From IMG/VR virus record IMGVR_UViG_3300035698_012650, positions 1 through 25,836 of that record: DNA of 25,836 nt; one strand, given 5' to 3'. The notes beneath the pieces were generated by a model, which saw only the letters and a list, made by a program, of their open reading frames with translations, did not search any database and was not told the origin of the DNA. Below are positions 4,417-24,821 of the stretch, one piece after another. This DNA is from a virus. Within the stretch, counting starts at the first letter, position 1, and every line of letters begins with the position of its first letter. Position numbers and translations under genes: made by a program.

Positions 4417-4803
4417 TTAGCTTACTTTTATTTTGTCGCAAGTAGCATCTATTGATATAGAACTTCCTCCTGTCGGCTGTAAGTTCATATTCTTATTCTG
4501 AAAATCACAATTAGCAAAAGTATAATTTACTATATTAGTTCCTGTATTAATTCTTAAAGTAATATCAAATTCAGATTCTCTCTCAAGAATATCATTAATA
4601 AGGTCTGTATATTCTTTTACATAAGGTATATCAAAACTTATATTTCTATCCGTTTCACCACTTTTCTGTTTAATCTTTGCCCCAATAGCTAGTGCAGTTT
4701 GGGCAGGGGTACTATCAGTGTATGAAAAGTTATTTACAGGAGCTGTTCTTCCATCGAAAGCTAACGTGGCATTTTCTATTTTTACTTCATTTAAAGTATC
4801 CAT
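4417..4803 (-). CDS. Tail tube protein
   Basis: A 128-aa beta-rich protein immediately after the sheath gene, the usual tube position in contractile tails. It begins MDTLNEVKIENATLAFDG; its centre contains 'ETDRNISFDIPYVKEYTDLI' and its end 'LQPTGGSSISIDATCD'. These fit the small two-sheet barrel of Mu gpM/FII-like and phage SU10-type tube proteins. Six-fold rings of it would form the inner tube through which DNA passes and around which the sheath contracts. The length of about 130 aa is normal for the family. A hairpin lies just beyond its stop. I identify it by order and overall pattern; no catalytic features are expected. Confidence 0.78.
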   Translation of the reverse strand: MDTLNEVKIENATLAFDGRTAPVNNFSYTDSTPAQTALAIGAKIKQKSGETDRNISFDIPYVKEYTDLINDILERESEFDITLRINTGTNIVNYTFANCDFQNKNMNLQPTGGSSISIDATCDKIKVS

Positions 4804-4837
4804 ATATTTTTAGTTAAATTCTAGTAATTAATTTATG

Positions 4838-6226
4838 TTAAGCCAAAGTAACTTGTCTAGTAAAGATGAAAGTTATTTGTTGAGCAGCATCTACGTCTTT
4901 ATAAATTATAGTTATATTTACAGCATTGGTAACATCTGGGTCTGCTATTGCTTCAACTGAAAAACTTATTAAGAAACTATATCCTGATAATACCGCTTCA
5001 ATATGCGCCTTTATTTTTTCTAGGTCTTCATCCCTAGTAGTTAAAGGATCTCCAACAGTAGTTAATTCAGTGGTCCATAAATCAAAATCATTAGCTATAT
5101 CTTTTCTCATATAATCCTCCACTGAAATTCTACTGATATTAGAATATAAAGTTGAAGGGTTACTATTAACATCAGTAGTCCATGATGTAACCATCTGATA
5201 AATTCTAACAGCAGATGTTGCCTGAATTACTCTAGATTTTAAACCAGTAACTCTTCCCTCAATAATAACACTTAGATCATCATTTGTAATTTTACCACCA
5301 TCTTCCCCATCTACTACTTCTGAAGCATTACTTAATGATATATCATTCATTGAAATAACCGCTTTATTTTCTCCTGCTAGTTTTCCCTTTTGGTATCCAT
5401 AAGTAGCTCCAGCTTTTACAGCAGAAATAAACCCTTGCTGATAAGAATCAGAATCAGTTTGTTTACAAATACCTCCTACTTGAAGAATTCTTTTACTATT
5501 TACCGCTGTGCTATCCACAACCATATCAGCAAAACTTTTTCCTTCCTCTTGCCCAAAGAAACCTAATGAAAATAACTCCTCGTCATCTTGGCTATCAAGT
5601 AATGTTTGAGCTAATTCCATATATGTAGAACCGTAACTTTGTTCTAGATATATTTCAAAATCCTGATTAGCTATACTTGCTCTTGCTGTTACTAATTCTC
5701 CTGCTGTTGCAACTTCTACATCTTTTACGGTACTTCCAACTGCGAATGTTTTATCTAAAGGTATATAAACTGAAAAATGAGTACTATCATCTACGGTACT
5801 AATTTTCCTCAAATTTTTATCCCCGCTAGCATTTTCCAATTCTACATGAGTGGTACCCTCAACTAATCCAGTAGTATCACTTACTTCAACTTGTACCAAA
5901 TTTTCTACCACCGCTCCCGAAACAGCTACAGCCATTGTATCAGAATAGCTTCCAAAATCGTTATTACTAACAGGAACAATATATATTTTTTGTTTATTAT
6001 TTACTCTAAAAATTTCTTCAACAGCCAAAGGTAATAAATTACCTTTTGAAAAATCACTTCCTATAGCATCCAAGCAAGCTTGTTTACTCGTATAAGGTCC
6101 ATACAGAGTTCCTGGAGTACCCTGTGGGGACGATCCAACTAAAGCTATTGGAACGGTCGTCTTTGCGGCTAAATTCGCTGATTCAGATGTGTCAACATCT
6201 GTTTTGATATACCGTTCTAGTCCCAT
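4838..6226 (-). CDS. Contractile tail sheath protein
   Basis: At 462 aa this has sheath length. The N-terminus reads 'TTVPIALVGSSPQGTPGTLYGPYTSKQACLDAIG' in parts (about 24-57), the typical 'pva.vG.a..Gp.n.p.lv.s..d....fG' pattern of sheath proteins. An 'EEIFRVNNKQKIYIVPV' strand follows (about 68-84). An inserted domain occupies the middle (about 95-185). The C-terminal third ('SRISVEDYMRKDIANDF', then an ending in strands 'VTNAVNITIIYKDV...ITFIFTRQVTLA') is the conserved part that locks sheath subunits to each other and to the tube. Known role: an extended tube of stacked hexamers that contracts to drive the tail tube into the cell. It shows the tail is contractile. The tube gene follows 34 bases later. 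Confidence 0.92.
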   Translation of the reverse strand: MGLERYIKTDVDTSESANLAAKTTVPIALVGSSPQGTPGTLYGPYTSKQACLDAIGSDFSKGNLLPLAVEEIFRVNNKQKIYIVPVSNNDFGSYSDTMAVAVSGAVVENLVQVEVSDTTGLVEGTTHVELENASGDKNLRKISTVDDSTHFSVYIPLDKTFAVGSTVKDVEVATAGELVTARASIANQDFEIYLEQSYGSTYMELAQTLLDSQDDEELFSLGFFGQEEGKSFADMVVDSTAVNSKRILQVGGICKQTDSDSYQQGFISAVKAGATYGYQKGKLAGENKAVISMNDISLSNASEVVDGEDGGKITNDDLSVIIEGRVTGLKSRVIQATSAVRIYQMVTSWTTDVNSNPSTLYSNISRISVEDYMRKDIANDFDLWTTELTTVGDPLTTRDEDLEKIKAHIEAVLSGYSFLISFSVEAIADPDVTNAVNITIIYKDVDAAQQITFIFTRQVTLA

Positions 6227-14452: not shown

Positions 14453-15823
14453 CTATTGACGATGACCTACAACTTTTGCAGCTTTAGCATACGCATCCGC
14501 AAAAGACATTTTATCCTCATCCATATACTTCAAAGCAGTTTCTTCAAATTTCTGTTTCAGATCAGCCCCTGGTGATTCATCATTTTTATCATAACTTTTT
14601 TCTAAAGCTTGATATGATGCAATAGATTTTCTTCCAATAGGGAGTTTAGCAAGTTTGTCTATAATAACATTTTGCTTATTTACTGTTTCCTCAATAACTT
14701 CAAATTTCTTATCAAATTTATTACTAGTATTCTTTTTAATATCCTGCATTTTGAATACTACTTTGGCTAATTTATTAAAATTAGTTTTTACTTCTATTAC
14801 CTTATCAGTTAAAACCTTAACAGTTTTTTCTAATTCACTTGGTTCTTCCTCTTTCTTCTTTTCTTCAACAACCTCTTCCGCTACTTCCTTCTCTTCTTTA
14901 ACCTCCTCAGCTTCTTTTTCAATTTCAGGTTCTTCCTTTTCCTCTATTTTTTCTCCGACTACTTCCTTCTTTATTTCTTCCTCTTCCTCTTCTTCCTCTT
15001 TTTCTGTCTCACTTTTAGCTAAGAATTCATCTAGTCTATCTCCAATCTTTTTTTCAGTTTCCTCTTCTTCCTTTTCCTCTATTTTTTCTCCAACTACCTT
15101 CTCTTCCTTTACTTCTTCAGCAGTTTTCTTAGCTTCATCATCAATCTTTTTATCAGCTTCTTCTACTACCACTACTTCCTCTTCTTCCTCCTCTTCTGAT
15201 TTTTTAGCTTTACCTTTGTCCTCTTTCATATCTACTTTATCTCCTTTTCTTCCTTCACTATCCATATCTTCCTTTTTATCCTTCTTTTCTTTTTTAGCTT
15301 TTTCAGCATCTTCCACTTTTTCTTTAACCTCTTCCTTTTCCTCTACCTTTTTCTCCTCAACTTTTACTTCTTCAGGAGTTTCTTCTTTATATAAATATTT
15401 AACTACTCCATCTTCAATCTTAACAGAATTATGTCTTTTAGCTTCTTGTAACTTAACGTAAGACATACTCATTTTAGCAATTACTTCCCCGCTCAATCCA
15501 TTTAATTCTTTAGGAATAGTATCACCCTTTCTATACTCAAAAGCTGATTTAAATAACATAACTTCTTCAGGAGTAAAAATAACTTCTTTTACAACTGCTC
15601 CTACATTAACCCCCATTATAGTATGCTCAGGAGAAACTTTCGCATTACTATCAATATTAGCTTGCCCTTCGGCTACTACTGGTTGATTATTTGATACTGA
15701 CTCCTTACCCATATCTTTACCTGAAGCAGTAGGATTACTGTGAGAAACACCTTGATTAGTTTTTTGACCCATAGCGTTAGCATAAGGTTTAGTAGCCGCT
15801 ACTTGTTTTTTTGTATCACCCAT
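14453..15823 (-). other. Possible internal start for a nested scaffold (codons 377-832)
   Basis: An in-frame ATG at 15823 (Met377, MGDTKKQVAA) follows a Asn/Ile-rich leader that, like the other gene starts here, is A/T-rich. Translation from it would give a protease-free scaffold of 456 aa, as in lambda C/Nu3. Nothing else in the sequence proves use of this start. Confidence 0.3.
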
Positions 15824-16951
15824 AGAATTAATGTTATTATTTAATTTATTATCACTCTCATTTATATTAATAGACTTTTCTTCATAATCTTCTTTCACCA
15901 TATTTGCCTCTTTGGCATGATAAAATAAATGATTAATAGCTATATTAAAGTCTTTAGGTTTCATATATTTTCTGTCATTAACTACATTCTTAATAGCGTA
16001 AGCTAAAAATTCTTCATTTAATGAATAATCGATATTATGATGAGGGTAGGAATAATGACCATCTGAAAAGACAATAAAACTTTCTTGCCTTAATTTTTGG
16101 TAAAAATCATAGTCTTCAAATTCTTTAGGCATCTTAGCACTTTCATCAATAATAACCGCGTCCATAAATTTGATCATATTACCTATAATTTCTAAATCGG
16201 GTGTTTCAGTATACTCAACACAAAAAACATCATCAACCATCCTTTCATATACTTCATTATAATCTTTACATAGAACTCCCTCCTTATCTTCCGTTGCTAA
16301 TGATTTAATTTCATTTTGTAATCTATCGTGAGCTTCTTTTACTTGATCTTCGGTAGCAGGTGACATAGCTCTGTAATGATTTACCATTTTTTTAGCCTCT
16401 GAAGAATAAGTTAGATCCTCAACTTTTTTATTCTTTTCAGTTGCATTTTTTACCTTAGACCAATTTACTGACTTAGCCATGCTTAATGAAGCATTATAAT
16501 TAGCAGGATTTTCCACAATTGAAATCTCTTGCAATATTACATCCGTATATACTTTTATATTTCTACCTAGTTCTTTAGAATATTCAAAACTAACGTCTAT
16601 TACTTTACCTCCTACTGAGAGAGCTAATTCTTTTCCTTTCTTTAATAACACAGAAATGTCATTTCCTAATGACATTTCTGTATCAATTTCTCCTTCTACT
16701 TCAAGTTTATTACTCTTATTCAATAAAGCTTTCGACCATTCGCCTATATTGGTATAAACTTTGTCTTCATGCTCCATTCTAATAGGTATTCCATCACCAG
16801 AATTAATGGAACTCTCCATACTCTTTAAAGCTTTCAAATCAAATCTTTCCTCATCCCTATCTATAGTAGGATCAGAAGCAATTCCTTTGACTATTAATTT
16901 ACCATTTTTTTTCTTCGTAAAGCTGGTAATAGGAACAATAATTTGAAACAT
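14453..16951 (-). CDS. Prohead protease fused to a long acidic scaffold
   Basis: An 832-aa protein. Residues 1-160 are an HK97/XkdF-type prohead serine protease. They contain 'IASDPTIDRDEERFD' (24-38), His61 in 'RMEHE', Ser112 in 'LALSVGG', and 'QEISIVENPAN' (141-151), the expected order of the catalytic His and Ser and of the conserved strand. Residues about 170-350 hold a domain rich in 'FSDGHYSYPHHNIDYSLNEE' in parts and helices to 350; it loosely recalls the His-containing DUF6582-like segment found in other phage proteases. Residues 377-520 are a Met/Gly/Asn-rich linker. Residues 522-708 are an extreme Glu/Lys-rich, mostly disordered or coiled region. Residues 709-770 form a coiled coil and 770-832 a helical end (FADAYAKAAKVV). 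Known role: the scaffold guides capsid assembly and is digested by the protease. The length is very large for this fusion. The ATG is at 16951. Confidence 0.85.
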   Translation of the reverse strand: MFQIIVPITSFTKKKNGKLIVKGIASDPTIDRDEERFDLKALKSMESSINSGDGIPIRMEHEDKVYTNIGEWSKALLNKSNKLEVEGEIDTEMSLGNDISVLLKKGKELALSVGGKVIDVSFEYSKELGRNIKVYTDVILQEISIVENPANYNASLSMAKSVNWSKVKNATEKNKKVEDLTYSSEAKKMVNHYRAMSPATEDQVKEAHDRLQNEIKSLATEDKEGVLCKDYNEVYERMVDDVFCVEYTETPDLEIIGNMIKFMDAVIIDESAKMPKEFEDYDFYQKLRQESFIVFSDGHYSYPHHNIDYSLNEEFLAYAIKNVVNDRKYMKPKDFNIAINHLFYHAKEANMVKEDYEEKSININESDNKLNNNINSMGDTKKQVAATKPYANAMGQKTNQGVSHSNPTASGKDMGKESVSNNQPVVAEGQANIDSNAKVSPEHTIMGVNVGAVVKEVIFTPEEVMLFKSAFEYRKGDTIPKELNGLSGEVIAKMSMSYVKLQEAKRHNSVKIEDGVVKYLYKEETPEEVKVEEKKVEEKEEVKEKVEDAEKAKKEKKDKKEDMDSEGRKGDKVDMKEDKGKAKKSEEEEEEEVVVVEEADKKIDDEAKKTAEEVKEEKVVGEKIEEKEEEETEKKIGDRLDEFLAKSETEKEEEEEEEEIKKEVVGEKIEEKEEPEIEKEAEEVKEEKEVAEEVVEEKKKEEEPSELEKTVKVLTDKVIEVKTNFNKLAKVVFKMQDIKKNTSNKFDKKFEVIEETVNKQNVIIDKLAKLPIGRKSIASYQALEKSYDKNDESPGADLKQKFEETALKYMDEDKMSFADAYAKAAKVVGHRQ
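14932..15097 (-). repeat. Direct repeat inside the acidic scaffold region
   Basis: A 31-base block at 14932-14962 recurs at 15067-15097 with one difference (135 bases apart). Both encode the 'VVGEKIEEKEE' unit. Further Glu/Lys-rich units lie between and outside. This shows growth of the acidic region by duplication within one frame. Confidence 0.7.
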
Positions 16952-18819: not shown

Positions 18820-20274
18820 CTAAAGTTTTTTTTCCTCAGTCTCTTCTATATCCTCATCATCAAACTCTGTATCTACAGTATAATCTTCCGATTCAGCTAT
18901 AGGTAAATATCCCCTTCTTATTCTAACCTCATCAGCACTTAATATTCCAGATTCTACATCCATTTTATCTATCTCTGATTGAATCTTTTCTTCGTCTACA
19001 TTAGATGCCTTTTCAAATTTGAATTCTATATTCTCATATCCTTCAGATTTTATTATTTCCCTTGTTAAATACTCTTCTACTACTCTCTTATATTTTCTTA
19101 CTCCTCTGGCATTACTCATTTTGAATTGAGTTTCACTAGTGCTTCTATTTACATCTTGAGTTATATTCGCATCTAAAGATGACAAACCATACTTGGCTAA
19201 TTTAATTCTGGATAACCAATCTGTATACTCAACAAATTGCATATCTCTATTATTTGTTTTAAAAGGCGTATACTTTTTAGTATTTTCAGATCCGTAAACA
19301 AATTTCATTTTATGCTTATTGTTATTAGTTGTGTAATTCCATAACTGCATAAACTCCATTGCCTTTTCTCTTGATACATCACCTAAATCTAACATTCCAG
19401 GTGGAATATTGTCTTCATCAAAAGTCTGAGCATTATGTATACTTGCATTTAAACTGGATTGAACCTCTAGTAAAATCGCCTCAATAGGGGACATACCATA
19501 ACTAAATAGCTCAACTGAATTTTGAGGATTCGCCATCATATAAATCATCTCATTTGCTTTAAATTCAGCTACTGCTCCTTGCCCTCTAGGATCATCATTA
19601 TTTATACCTCTAGAATTATTATTATGAGAATTATATCCTCCTTGCTCTATTACTTGTAAATAAGCTGGATCACCAAATTCACCATATTGATTATAAACTG
19701 GTCGTATAGTTGTGCCGTCTACTGAATTAATACCTACTATTTCTCCTAGACTATTTGATACTTTTTCTATTGCTCCAGCATCATAAATAAGAAGGTCTTC
19801 TAAAACCCTGCTTAACAATAGTCTGAAATTCTCTCCGTTGTTATTTACATTATTAAATAGGTAATTAAATTTTTTAATACCTTCAGCAATTCCTTCATCA
19901 TCTCTATCCTTCTGATCCATATCATCTGGTAATTCAATTTTTTTTTGTTTACCTTTTTCAGATATATTCCAATCACATTGAGATACGGTATCTTTAATTA
20001 GATCTACACATATACTAATTAGAGCATCATATTTATAAATCTGGAATAACTTTTTAAAACTAATTCCTGGCTTTTTCAACCCCCATTTTTTTACTAAATC
20101 ATCGTTACCAGCTAAACCCATTGTTTCTGTTGTCCATAAAGATATACTTTTAAATTGAGATTTTGTTACTATTCCTAATTTGTTAGCTATACGATTAGTA
20201 ATTCTGGAAAATAAACTATCTTTTGAATCTGAAGATCTTTTATCTAACATTGATTGAACGATGTCTTTAGTCAT
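18820..20274 (-). CDS. Portal protein
   Basis: A 484-aa protein of the HK97/SPP1-type portal family. It follows the terminase and precedes the MuF gene, the usual order. Features seen: 'YKYDALISICVDLIKDTV' (about 80-97, the first conserved helix after the N-arm), 'RVLEDLLIYDAGAIEKV' (about 156-172, the 'l..l..d.ll.Gna..e....' segment), 'MMANPQNSVELFSYGMSPIEA' read in parts (about 246-266, the 'h.....g...G.Spi..a' motif), 'AQTFDEDNIPPGML' and a closing acidic tail (EDIEETEEKKL). Twelve copies would make the ring through which DNA enters and leaves, with the terminase docking on it. The ATG is at 20274. Confidence 0.9.
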   Translation of the reverse strand: MTKDIVQSMLDKRSSDSKDSLFSRITNRIANKLGIVTKSQFKSISLWTTETMGLAGNDDLVKKWGLKKPGISFKKLFQIYKYDALISICVDLIKDTVSQCDWNISEKGKQKKIELPDDMDQKDRDDEGIAEGIKKFNYLFNNVNNNGENFRLLLSRVLEDLLIYDAGAIEKVSNSLGEIVGINSVDGTTIRPVYNQYGEFGDPAYLQVIEQGGYNSHNNNSRGINNDDPRGQGAVAEFKANEMIYMMANPQNSVELFSYGMSPIEAILLEVQSSLNASIHNAQTFDEDNIPPGMLDLGDVSREKAMEFMQLWNYTTNNNKHKMKFVYGSENTKKYTPFKTNNRDMQFVEYTDWLSRIKLAKYGLSSLDANITQDVNRSTSETQFKMSNARGVRKYKRVVEEYLTREIIKSEGYENIEFKFEKASNVDEEKIQSEIDKMDVESGILSADEVRIRRGYLPIAESEDYTVDTEFDDEDIEETEEKKL

Positions 20275-20520: not shown

Positions 20521-23500
20521 TCAGAGTAACCCTTGGTCAATTAAACCCTGAACATCCCTATAATGCTCCTCTAATGCTTTTTCTTTATTCCCCTCTACTA
20601 TTTTAGGGTCTTCTATACTTACTGGCTTTATCTTATTCAAATCTCCGCTTAAAAATCCTATTTCATTATCTTTTGTATTTACAATACAATTATATACACT
20701 TCCTGCTAAAGCATCAGAACAATCTTTTGACCCTCCTATAGGATGATCAATTTTACTGGAATTTATAATTTCAAGACTTAATAACTCATCTTTTACCTCC
20801 GGCATAGGATGGACATCTAATCTGTCATCATATACAACTTCCTTTAATGTTTCATAAGGACCAATATCTCTATCAACGGATAATAGTTCACATTTAAATC
20901 CTTTTTTTGTTAATTGTTGAATTGAATCAACTGAATTATGGACAAAAACACCCGCAGTAGTAGCAAAATTATGTAACCCTTCTACCTCAATATCCCAAGT
21001 TTCATCTTTGATATTTAATTTTTCTATTCTAACTATCTTATGATTTTTTCTTAATTTGGTATTCCTTATTTTTTCTATTGTTTGTAACGAACGCTTCTTG
21101 CCTTTCCAATAACCTTCATTTCCTTTATGTGAATCACTTTGAATTTTTCTATTTTCAGGCTTTGCCCACCATTCTTTCATTTTATCTGAAATACTTTTCT
21201 TAATTGTATCTTTTAATGTCTTTCCAGTTCTATAATTATTTTTACTATTTCTTTCTGAAATAAATTTACTCATTTTTGTATGCTCTTCTTCTTTTAACCA
21301 TCTTTTCCTATTTCCTTCTGCTAATACCCTTTTCATTTTACCGGGATTTTCTTTCCAATTTCTTTTACTTGTTTCTTCTAGTGCTTTATTCCTTCTCTCC
21401 TGCGCTTCTGGATTCTTGGATAATAATTTTCTCCCTTTTTCATACGCCTTAATAGCGTTATCTTTATGTATTCTACCGTGATCTTTATAAGTTAAACTGA
21501 CTAAATTAGGGGGAGTATTATCTTTCTTCCTAGCGTTTCTATGATGTACTACCTTACCTTTTCTTATCTCATTTTTTTGTCTCATCACAGCTCTATGTGT
21601 ATACTCCCATTTTCCTCTGGGATGTAATACCATCTCGTAATCTCTCAAATCCTCATTTCCTTTTTTCCTATAAAGAGGCATTAAACTATCTCCCACTTTT
21701 AAATCTAACACTTGTTTATATGAACCATCCCTAATCATAAAAGGATGATTTTCAGAGCAATCTATAAATTCATTATTATCTAAATGTATTCTAAAAATAT
21801 CCTTTGTACCCGAACGCCGCACCTTCTTTACTTTTCCAAAGCCTATATCACCTTGTTTATTTATAGAATATACATACTCTCCTTCTTTTATATCTTCTAT
21901 ATTTTTGTCAACTCCTGATAATAAAGGGATACTCGAATTCTTTTTTAAAGGCATATCTTCTATATTAGTAATTATACCCTTATTATACATTGTACTTTGC
22001 GAACTATCAAAAGTAACTATTGGAATCTTAGTTCCCTTTCTTAAACACTGCCATCCATCGTATGAAACTAATGATATATTATATCCCATTTCTTTTAACG
22101 CATAAATTCTATTTCTAATATCTTCAAAATCTATTTCTTTTTTATCACCGCACGTTATCTTTTCCAAAACATCAACATATACTTTCTTTTTACGTTCTCC
22201 AAAAGGGGTTTCAATCCATCCTTCAAAATGACTCATACAAAATCCCGCACTATCTCCTTTATTATTTCTATTCAGTGCTAGATCAACATGTATATAATAA
22301 GAAGTTCTTAAAGCACTTGGCATTAAATATCCTCCTGTTTCCAAAACGGGATTTTCTCTTTCATTATTAAATATTCTACTAACTATATCTTCATGAGGGA
22401 AGTATCCTTGTAAAGCTTTACCAGGTACGGCAGCAAAATCTCTCTTAGCTTTATCAGGGTTAGTCTGAAAAGACTTTTTGTACTCTCCAGGAATTTCCCA
22501 TACCTCTTTACTTAGATCATATTTTTCATCTGATAGAAAAGCTATTTTATTTCTGTTTACGCTTTCAAGCTCTCTATCTTCTATTATCCTAGATTTTCTA
22601 CTATTGAAATAAAATTTAGTAACTAAACTTTTCTTACCCGATGGTTTAGAACCCCATGTTGGAAATTGATTTCCATAAACTTTATCAGGATATTCCTTAC
22701 TCTCTGCAAATTTAGTCATAACAAAATCTCCTTCTCTTTGTGGGGAACTTATTGCGACTACTAAACCATAAAATCCAAATCGTGAAACTATCCTCCTCTG
22801 AAGACTATGATATATTTCTTCAGCGATATTCTTCTCATCATTATCTAAATAGAAAGCTGCCTCATCTAATATTCCTGTAAATATACTATAACCTAATGCC
22901 TTTGTACTTTTACTATTACCAGCTATTAACATTATCTCCTCCCCCCTGAAATGAATAGTGGCATTTAGTATCTTTGGATTGAATTGGCAAAAAAATGGGG
23001 AGTTTTCTACCATTGACCTAATTCCTTTAAATACTACCTGCTGTGCCTGTGTTGCAGTAGTTCCCATATTAATAACTGCAATAGGTTTATCTTTGGTTAA
23101 ACAAAAATAATCATGTGCGCTTTTAAAACACAATAGAAATTGAGTGTTATAACAAGACAATATCTGAGATAAAAAGGATTTTCCACTATTATGTGTAACT
23201 GTAAAATCATCCCACAAATATAAATTATCTCCTGTTACTTCTATTCCTATATAATTTCCTCTACCTATATTTTCAACCGATAAACCTGTTCTCAATACAT
23301 TTTTCTTCTGTAATCTAATCGTTGCCTTTTTCCTTTCTACTTTTGTAGGTATTTCATCTAAATTACCTGATATACTAACAATCCATGAATGGAACTTTTT
23401 ACCTTCACATGTAGTTATTTTATTATTTTTATAAGCAGCAAATCCCAAACTTCTACAAAGATATACTGCGTCATCAATAAGCTTTTCATTAGAATTATAA

Positions 23501-24525
23501 AAACTAAAACAATTATTATAAAAACTTCTATCACTATCTAATAGACCAGCTAATACTTTTAACCTTATTTCTCTAGAATTAAATTTATAACGATTTGGTA
23601 GATGTTTATTTCTTAGAAGGTTTAACTCTTTCATCTCCTTAAACAAAATATTTCCAGATCGTTTTCTTCCATTAGTTATTTTATACGTTGGACAAGTCCT
23701 AGTAGTGTTGTAATTTATAGTAACTTTTAAATTATATTTTGAAGCTAATTTATAAATATAATCTTTAATCTCTTCATCCGCAGTAGTTATACCTGTATTG
23801 TGCGAAGTTCCGTCACCTAACCATAAACCTATATAGTAAGGATCAACTGATACTTTCTGATAACTAAAATCTACTCCTGTTCTCCATAACTTTAGTATTC
23901 CTTTCATCTTCTTAGATTGACCCAAATACTCTTCTACAGTCATATTAACTATACTATTAGCCAATTTATCCTTAGACCCATTCTTACTAATAATTCCTTT
24001 ATTAGTCCTTATAAAACTCAAAGTATGAAATCCTGTAACTATCTTTTCCTCTCCTTTAACAGGAGTAATTCTATACATATCGGATACGCCAGAATGTATA
24101 TCTACTATTGTCCTAGATTTACTATCGTGTCCCATTACTTTATCTCCTAACTTTAAATCATCATTTCTTTTTACCGAACCATCAGCCATTAATATTTTTG
24201 TTCCTACTGCTTCACATCCGATTCCTCCTACAATTACAGCTTCACTAAACTTTCCATTAATAATATTACAGCAATCTTTTCTGATTTCAGGGTATATGTA
24301 TTTATTCAAATTTAAATAATGAGGACTATCAATAAATGTTTCTATTGATATTTGAGGGACCCTATATAATTCAGGGTGTTCTAAATAGTCCACTAAAAAC
24401 TTAATGTCTTTATCATTTATACATTTAGGTAAATGCTCTGAAATTACCCTTTGAACGCATTTAGGTAACTTATCAAAACAGTCATTTAAATTATCTAGAA
24501 TATCCTCTACCTCTTTACTAAACAA
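20521..24525 (-). CDS. terL: Large terminase subunit with two inteins (precursor, 1334 aa)
   Basis: The large terminase pumps DNA into the prohead by ATP hydrolysis and cuts it with an RNase H-like nuclease. The precursor has 1334 codons, but residues 104-446 and 827-1197 are inteins. Spliced, it is 620 aa, normal for TerL. ATPase: Walker A 'GGIG' (100-103) joined to 'SGKS' (447-450), Walker B 'GILDEAAFY' (551-559, acidic D554/E555) and coupling motif 'AISSPQ' (591-596). Nuclease: Asp748 in 'YIHVDLA', Asp823 in 'YDGWQ' continuing at Ser1198 'SVDSIQQL', and Asp1268/Asp1271 in 'DCSDALAG'. The start is TTG at 24525; a stop lies two codons before and no ATG occurs before the first intein. No small terminase gene is recognised nearby. 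Confidence 0.96.
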   Translation of the reverse strand: MFSKEVEDILDNLNDCFDKLPKCVQRVISEHLPKCINDKDIKFLVDYLEHPELYRVPQISIETFIDSPHYLNLNKYIYPEIRKDCCNIINGKFSEAVIVGGIGCEAVGTKILMADGSVKRNDDLKLGDKVMGHDSKSRTIVDIHSGVSDMYRITPVKGEEKIVTGFHTLSFIRTNKGIISKNGSKDKLANSIVNMTVEEYLGQSKKMKGILKLWRTGVDFSYQKVSVDPYYIGLWLGDGTSHNTGITTADEEIKDYIYKLASKYNLKVTINYNTTRTCPTYKITNGRKRSGNILFKEMKELNLLRNKHLPNRYKFNSREIRLKVLAGLLDSDRSFYNNCFSFYNSNEKLIDDAVYLCRSLGFAAYKNNKITTCEGKKFHSWIVSISGNLDEIPTKVERKKATIRLQKKNVLRTGLSVENIGRGNYIGIEVTGDNLYLWDDFTVTHNSGKSFLSQILSCYNTQFLLCFKSAHDYFCLTKDKPIAVINMGTTATQAQQVVFKGIRSMVENSPFFCQFNPKILNATIHFRGEEIMLIAGNSKSTKALGYSIFTGILDEAAFYLDNDEKNIAEEIYHSLQRRIVSRFGFYGLVVAISSPQREGDFVMTKFAESKEYPDKVYGNQFPTWGSKPSGKKSLVTKFYFNSRKSRIIEDRELESVNRNKIAFLSDEKYDLSKEVWEIPGEYKKSFQTNPDKAKRDFAAVPGKALQGYFPHEDIVSRIFNNERENPVLETGGYLMPSALRTSYYIHVDLALNRNNKGDSAGFCMSHFEGWIETPFGERKKKVYVDVLEKITCGDKKEIDFEDIRNRIYALKEMGYNISLVSYDGWQCLRKGTKIPIVTFDSSQSTMYNKGIITNIEDMPLKKNSSIPLLSGVDKNIEDIKEGEYVYSINKQGDIGFGKVKKVRRSGTKDIFRIHLDNNEFIDCSENHPFMIRDGSYKQVLDLKVGDSLMPLYRKKGNEDLRDYEMVLHPRGKWEYTHRAVMRQKNEIRKGKVVHHRNARKKDNTPPNLVSLTYKDHGRIHKDNAIKAYEKGRKLLSKNPEAQERRNKALEETSKRNWKENPGKMKRVLAEGNRKRWLKEEEHTKMSKFISERNSKNNYRTGKTLKDTIKKSISDKMKEWWAKPENRKIQSDSHKGNEGYWKGKKRSLQTIEKIRNTKLRKNHKIVRIEKLNIKDETWDIEVEGLHNFATTAGVFVHNSVDSIQQLTKKGFKCELLSVDRDIGPYETLKEVVYDDRLDVHPMPEVKDELLSLEIINSSKIDHPIGGSKDCSDALAGSVYNCIVNTKDNEIGFLSGDLNKIKPVSIEDPKIVEGNKEKALEEHYRDVQGLIDQGLL
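20935..22047 (-). other. Intein 2, nuclease-domain site, HNH endonuclease type
   Basis: A 371-residue in-frame insert (TerL residues 827-1197). Splicing features: Cys827 in 'CLRKGTKI', 'KNIEDIKEGEYVYS' after an unusual insert, block B 'CSENHPF' with His927, block F 'TWDIEVEGLHNF', and the end 'VHN' (His1196, Asn1197) followed by Ser1198. Endonuclease: an HNH motif with His994/His995, Asn1007 ('PPNLVSLT') and His1016/His1020 ('KDHGRIH'), then a basic tail of NUMOD3-like helices ('GKTLKDTIKKSISDKM', 'GKKRSLQTIEKIRNTKL'). The insertion is after Gln826, three residues past Asp823 in the 'SYDGWQ' block of the nuclease domain. Confidence 0.92.
23188..24216 (-). other. Intein 1, P-loop site, LAGLIDADG endonuclease type
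   Basis: A 343-residue in-frame insert (TerL residues 104-446). Splicing features: Cys104 first residue with block A 'CEAVGTKILMADGS', 'LKLGDKVMG' next, block B 'TGFHTLS' with Thr164 and His167, block F 'YIGIEVTGDNLYLW', and the end 'THN' (His445, Asn446), followed by Ser447 of the extein. Endonuclease: two LAGLIDADG motifs, 'YIGLWLGDG' (Asp238) and 'LAGLLDSDR' (Asp332), both with their acidic residue. So splicing and homing residues are all present and it appears active. It cuts the Walker A motif, between Gly103 and Ser447; this ATPase position is used by inteins in unrelated proteins. Confidence 0.94.
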
Positions 24526-24596: not shown

Positions 24597-24628
24597 AAAA
24601 AGACCCCAGATTTCTCCAAGATCTTTTT
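24597..24628 (-). terminator. Intrinsic terminator, 14-bp stem with GAAA loop
   Basis: On the minus strand AAAAAGATCTTGGA, loop GAAA, TCTGGGGTCTTTTT pair over all 14 positions, four of them G-U. The stem ends in five T's. Because G-U pairs become A-C mismatches on the plus strand, only the minus-strand transcript folds fully. The hairpin overlaps the stop of the short replisome-like ORF. Confidence 0.85.
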
Positions 24629-24821
24629 ACCAATAACATAAATAAGCTTTATTGAATTTTTTACTAATATCAAATTCGCAGTTTTCGGCTTGTCCAATTA
24701 TTCCATTCAAAGCCCAAAACTTACCTTCACCCGCCCATCCATACTTAGTACGCAACATTTTAATCTTTGCATTATTATGAGCATCTACTTCATGTCTGTA
24801 ATAATCGATATTGTTTTTCAT
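24627..24821 (-). CDS. Short replisome-organiser-like protein (DUF4373-like), probably truncated
   Basis: A 64-aa ORF reading 'YYRHEVDAHNNAKIKMLRTKYGWAGEGKFWALNGII' in parts (residues 7-42). This is the pattern of the Lin1244/Lin1753-like (DUF4373) N-terminal domain of phage replisome organisers, which have 'YF.hD.dar.d.Ki..Lr.kyG..GyG.yw.ll'. Full-length members run to 100-300 aa. Here the protein ends soon after the domain start ('KKFNKAYLCYW'), and the stop lies in the terminator stem. I take it as a truncated or minimal version that may bind DNA, or a remnant. The ATG at 24821 has an A/T-rich leader. Confidence 0.6.
   Translation of the reverse strand: MKNNIDYYRHEVDAHNNAKIKMLRTKYGWAGEGKFWALNGIIGQAENCEFDISKKFNKAYLCYW

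Follow-up and report, generated by a model that had tools for sequence, protein, structure and literature searches.

The window (the whole 25,836-nt stretch of virus record IMGVR_UViG_3300035698_012650) holds a long minus-strand reading frame that raises three questions: whether one large terminase (TerL) gene carries two inteins of different endonuclease classes, how such a pair came about, and whether it controls DNA packaging. A preliminary description, which gave no strand, placed inteins at residues 104–446 and 827–1197 of this frame and predicted a spliced product of 620 aa; these positions and the product length proved residue-exact. The ORF is confirmed to encode a phage large terminase in which both catalytic domains are interrupted, each by one complete class-1-type intein, and the endonucleases of the two inteins belong to different classes. 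Its parts are listed below, with ^ marking insertion points.

20521–24525, minus strand: TerL precursor ORF, 1334 codons (1334 aa), TTG start
24217–24525, minus strand: N-extein, residues 1–103, ending with the first half of Walker A (GGIG)
23188–24216, minus strand: intein A, residues 104–446 (343 aa), Hint plus LAGLIDADG, PI-SceI family, at G^SGKS
23809–23838, minus strand: LAGLIDADG motif 1 of intein A (YYIGLWLGDG), acidic Asp retained
23527–23556, minus strand: LAGLIDADG motif 2 of intein A (VLAGLLDSDR), Asp retained, Arg for the last Gly
22048–23187, minus strand: middle extein, residues 447–826, with SGKS, Walker B GILDEAA, nuclease motif I IHVDL and motif II SYDGWQ
20935–22047, minus strand: intein B, residues 827–1197 (371 aa), Hint plus HNH plus NUMOD3, at DGWQ^SVDS
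21466–21552, minus strand: complete HNH motif of intein B (HH...N...H)
21055–21102, minus strand: NUMOD3-like DNA-binding motif of intein B (approximate extent)
20524–20934, minus strand: C-extein, residues 1198–1334, with nuclease motif III KDCSDAL

Terminase identity and the two inteins

The frame reads from 24525 to 20521 with no internal stop or frameshift across its 1334 codons. Removal of intein A and intein B leaves a joined extein of 620 aa, which matches the PHROGs terminase profile phrog_2 (1e-18) and, over at least 80% of its length, 263 phage records, annotated terminases included; those of Streptomyces, Gordonia, Tsukamurella and Vibrio phages share ~30% identity with it. Walker A occupies residues 100–107 of the joined extein and Walker B (GILDEAA) starts at 208, while the nuclease acids D405, D480 and D557 are invariant in six aligned sequences and, judging by the known terminase fold, would be catalytic. 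The Walker A/B ATPase and the RNase H-like nuclease acids are found together in one protein, with a portal gene adjoining (18820–20274) and genes for a Mu-F-like head protein, a prohead protease and the capsid coming after the terminase. Chance is excluded by the length of the ORF and by homology on either side of each joint.

No Pfam terminase family matched the precursor, and no PDB sequence relative was found for the joined extein or for the extein profile; the TerL identity, a sequence-based assignment, rests on PHROGs and the annotated homologues. PHROG terminase profiles compared with the unjoined precursor matched mainly intein A (phrog_36964 at residues 119–406; phrog_15 at 106–338), so only evidence from the extein counts towards the terminase. 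Intein sequence has apparently been incorporated into these two profiles, which can then give the wrong label to other genes that carry an intein. The case calls for caution in annotation: searches recognise the interrupted terminase gene poorly, and certain terminase profiles detect the intein rather than the host protein.

Intein A splits Walker A (GGIG^SGKS), and its assignment to the LAGLIDADG class was borne out by Pfam (Hom_end_hint 1.8e-14, Hom_end 1e-7, LAGLIDADG_3 3.8e-7). It matched a PI-SceI-type PDB profile at 6e-42, and its AlphaFold2 model (pLDDT 91) aligned with PI-SceI in Foldseek (1vde; 1e-25, TM 0.82); profile and fold alike thus place it in the family of the yeast VMA1 intein. 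PI-SceI likewise interrupts an ATPase P-loop, but it is longer and its host is a eukaryotic V-ATPase. The splicing residues of intein A, namely C1, H64, the penultimate H342, N343 and the +1 Ser, occupy columns that vary little or not at all in the family, and the LAGLIDADG acids D135 and D229 are invariant in 20 aligned rows. Its endonuclease could be weakened, because Arg replaces the last Gly of LAGLIDADG motif 2.

Intein B lies in the nuclease domain, three residues past D480, the Asp that is invariant in nuclease motif II. Searched alone against Pfam, it matched Intein_splicing (5e-17), and the HNH endonuclease with a NUMOD3-like tail that had been proposed for it holds by narrow margins (HNH_3, 25.0 bits against a cut-off of 24.8; NUMOD3, 22.0 bits against 20.4). 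Its model, whose confidence is low for residues 1–37 and around 270–332, has the Hint fold (Foldseek to 5e-6), with the Ssp DnaB mini-intein and Npu DnaE as best PDB matches. C1, H101, the penultimate H370, N371 and the +1 Ser make up its splicing residues, in columns that are again invariant or nearly so, the penultimate His less than the others. Both inteins begin with Cys and end in HN^S, as the preliminary description had read them. A relative of intein B, the HNH intein in the dCTP deaminase of phage CL131, has been demonstrated to excise itself in E. coli.

The Arg in intein A, together with a TTG start that lacks a clear ribosome-binding site, might suggest that the gene is decaying or that the inserts remain in the protein as retained domains. 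However, every splicing residue is intact in both A and B, and the Walker motifs A and B and three nuclease acids are all retained in the extein, within an unbroken frame; we consider dead or retained inteins highly unlikely.

Empty sites, gain and loss among relatives

Relatives lacking exactly both inserts were sought and found. A six-way protein alignment of the window's terminase with five inteinless relatives runs without gaps through both joints; at site B, the +1 Ser (S484 of the joined extein) is the same in every sequence. The terminase nearest to the window's, that of L178 (53%), is empty at both intein sites. At the DNA level, three empty/occupied pairs from other phages of the family were aligned: L019 (empty) with L184 (site B and a motif-III site occupied; 82% nt), L180 (empty) with L185 (a degenerate P-loop intein; 87–91%), and L183 (empty) with L276 (site B occupied; 75–76%). 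Homology breaks and resumes at most 2 nt (0–2) from the predicted intein ends in these pairs. The L185 intein (4777–5199), 141 aa long, lacks an endonuclease and occupies the P-loop site that intein A uses in the window. A search of IMG/VR for the whole precursor by short, over-specific patterns gave no match; the relatives came from alignment-based searches.

In a tree of 75 related exteins, 45 terminases are free of inteins both in the P-loop and at site B, 15 have a P-loop intein only, 10 have B only and 5 have both, one HNH intein (that of L302) being counted among the P-loop inteins; the loci were collected partly through intein searches, so these counts are biased and are not frequencies for the whole terminase family. 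The window's terminase falls within a 12-row clade (support 100/100) whose members carry no intein, A alone, a degenerate A of 141 aa, B alone, B together with another intein, or both A and B; most of them have one intein or none. Parsimony on the 75-terminase tree gave 16 changes for the P-loop intein and 12 for site B, and paired comparisons on it detected no association between the two. The suggestion that the inteins reflect two separate invasions agrees with these data: they belong to unrelated families, and all four presence/absence combinations occur in relatives. Repeated, separate gain and loss of both inteins by homing is well supported by the comparison of sequences, and invasion or loss appears to be frequent. 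Terminase genes that are close relatives but carry anything from no intein to three, some of them degenerate, form a natural series for studies of intein homing.

Over 700 phage records contain relatives of intein A. At the loci that were read, most members of the family interrupt a P-loop, in one of two registers 9 nt apart (GK^S/T or G^SGK), and the family tree implies ~10 switches of register, even between close terminases. Intein A of the window groups with that of L211/L212 (SH-aLRT 98), both in the G^SGK register. The inteins of L052/L053 were first taken as intein A at the window's site, an assignment we rejected since theirs lie at GK^S, three residues on. Both registers are seen among window positions 23188–24216, L052, L053, L196, L202, L206 and L211. 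The closest relatives of intein B occupy exactly its insertion site in the terminases of L184, L098 and L276, and a second HNH-intein clade is found at site B in those of L200, L206, L207, L084, L299, L294, L277 and L113. HNH inteins cluster by insertion site, with 9 site changes on the tree against at least 15 in 300 shuffles.

These placements bear on the possibility that inteins of different phages were merged into one contig during assembly, which the origin of the window as a metagenomic virus record would permit. Yet both joints are in frame and residue-exact, family-specific inteins occupy the same sites elsewhere (A in L211/L212; B in L098, L184 and L276), and four other A+B double lineages come from independent contigs. 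An assembly chimera is extremely unlikely.

An intein hotspot and known terminase systems

In the terminase family as a whole, inteins are found just before the P-loop, at G^SGK, at GK^S, near Walker B, at profile positions 298 and 363, and at FDxxQ^S (site B), with one or two further sites around the third nuclease motif (G^SKD; KDV^SDA); the hotspot comprises about eight to ten sites. A LAGLIDADG intein in the P-loop is combined with an HNH-type intein at B in four other terminase lineages (L200/L201/L203; L206; L207; L294), and the L206 terminase carries both at exactly the window's two sites. Three-intein terminases are also seen, in L310 from 3073 and L331 from 2407 (ORFs of 1502 and 1578 aa). 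We found no description in the open-access papers searched of the extent of this hotspot, nor of FDxxQ^S, a nuclease-domain insertion site repeatedly used by HNH inteins, as a recurrent site of this kind.

The preliminary description suggested that such a pair in one terminase might be new. That view is rejected because of these double lineages and the TerL of Microcystis phage Mic1 (PMC7156551; MN013189, L017), reported in 2020 with one intein per domain and a proposed regulatory role. As in the window, the two Mic1 inteins differ from each other, interrupt the ATPase and nuclease domains, and include a homing endonuclease in the larger. Their sites are different, however (TG^C..HN^TPKG in the ATPase; DHL^C..SN^CDALRY near the third nuclease acid), and the second Mic1 intein is small and not HNH, whereas intein B is HNH. 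The TerL of crAss-like delta phage OBYQ01000140 (PMC7886860) also consists of three in-frame parts separated by two inteins, but both are described as of Hint-Hop type and the gene contains recoded TAG. The window's pair is an instance of an intein hotspot that was already known, rather than a singular case.

Mycobacteriophage terminases (PMC5050341) share with the window the P-loop sites, TerL being the main phage intein host. All seven of their sites (a–g) are in the ATPase domain, whereas the window's inteins also reach the nuclease domain, and neither 'two inteins' nor 'multiple inteins' occurs in the text of that paper. Splicing and endonuclease activity were demonstrated there for several of them: five of five tested spliced readily, and both of those tested for cutting cut inteinless alleles. 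Variation at the penultimate His changes the splicing rate of mycobacteriophage inteins. The TerL intein of the Salmonella phage Segz_1 type (L003) belongs to the same LAGLIDADG family as intein A, with 38% identity to it, and splits Walker A at precisely the same point (G^SGK), although its terminase is unrelated to the window's and no second intein was seen in the ORF.

Bacillus phage SP-15 has a related terminase (SP15_022/SP15_026) with an HNH intein related to B. That intein lies just upstream of the P-loop rather than in the nuclease domain, and an apparent second, fractured intein is found at Walker B. SP15_022, annotated as hypothetical (L013/L005, SP15_022 to SP15_026), comprises the N-terminal part of the terminase and the HNH intein, and SP15_026 starts with the C-terminal half of an intein (VHN^CGLLDEVEF). 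The SP-15 terminase looks fractured, with endonuclease-like genes between its parts and ~60 aa of extein unaccounted for.

Probable homing and splicing, and genomic surroundings

Two homing inteins very probably colonised this terminase gene of an uncultivated tailed phage independently, and each is predicted to splice out and leave a normal 620-aa ATPase–nuclease. Based on known homing biology, we propose that each intein inserts at the DNA level into an unoccupied terminase gene, at one of the conserved catalytic motifs, where the intein's own endonuclease would cut and repair would copy the occupied allele. Catalytic motifs may be targeted because they are the most invariant DNA and imprecise loss from them would be lethal. 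From the intact motifs and the fold, each intein would then leave the precursor by protein splicing through Cys1, the C-terminal Asn and Ser+1, yielding the normal 620-aa packaging enzyme.

Both inteins interrupt a catalytic motif, and an unspliced precursor is trivially inactive. The preliminary description went further and suggested that packaging might be held off until splicing occurs. In its full form this idea has the ATPase and the nuclease locked until a late-infection signal triggers splicing, with packaging starting after both are released. The Mic1 authors put forward this idea for the two TerL inteins of their phage, and the two inteins of M. smegmatis DnaB are reported to answer stress differently (PMC6195587). 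Against this, most terminases of the window's clade have one intein or none, A and B are uncorrelated across the 75-terminase tree, homing by itself accounts for sites in invariant motifs, and the penultimate His is kept in both inteins, while tested TerL inteins splice readily. No sequence feature for signal-controlled splicing was found in either intein. Since both keep residues associated with fast splicing, delayed packaging finds no support beyond logic. Such a double lock is very unlikely, and it is just as improbable that the multi-site hotspot acts, through joint occupation of ATPase and nuclease, as a post-translational timer for packaging. Plain homing with constitutive splicing is the most likely account; conditional splicing is possible, and only in that case would a regulatory role gain importance.

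In Rfam, the window matched no structured RNA, whether a group I intron or any other kind. The only match in a cellular genome is an inteinless relative terminase (L355, 4941–6650) on a contig of a Patescibacteria MAG, near genes resembling queuosine-pathway enzymes; this is a possible hint of a Patescibacteria host, too thin for assignment. Directly upstream of the terminase, a 64-aa ORF on the minus strand (window 24627–24821) matches Lin1244_N (PF14297) over a length that is cut short, and it looks truncated. A head-protease-like protein of 832 aa with a very long Glu/Lys-rich region is encoded at window 14453–16951, also on the minus strand.
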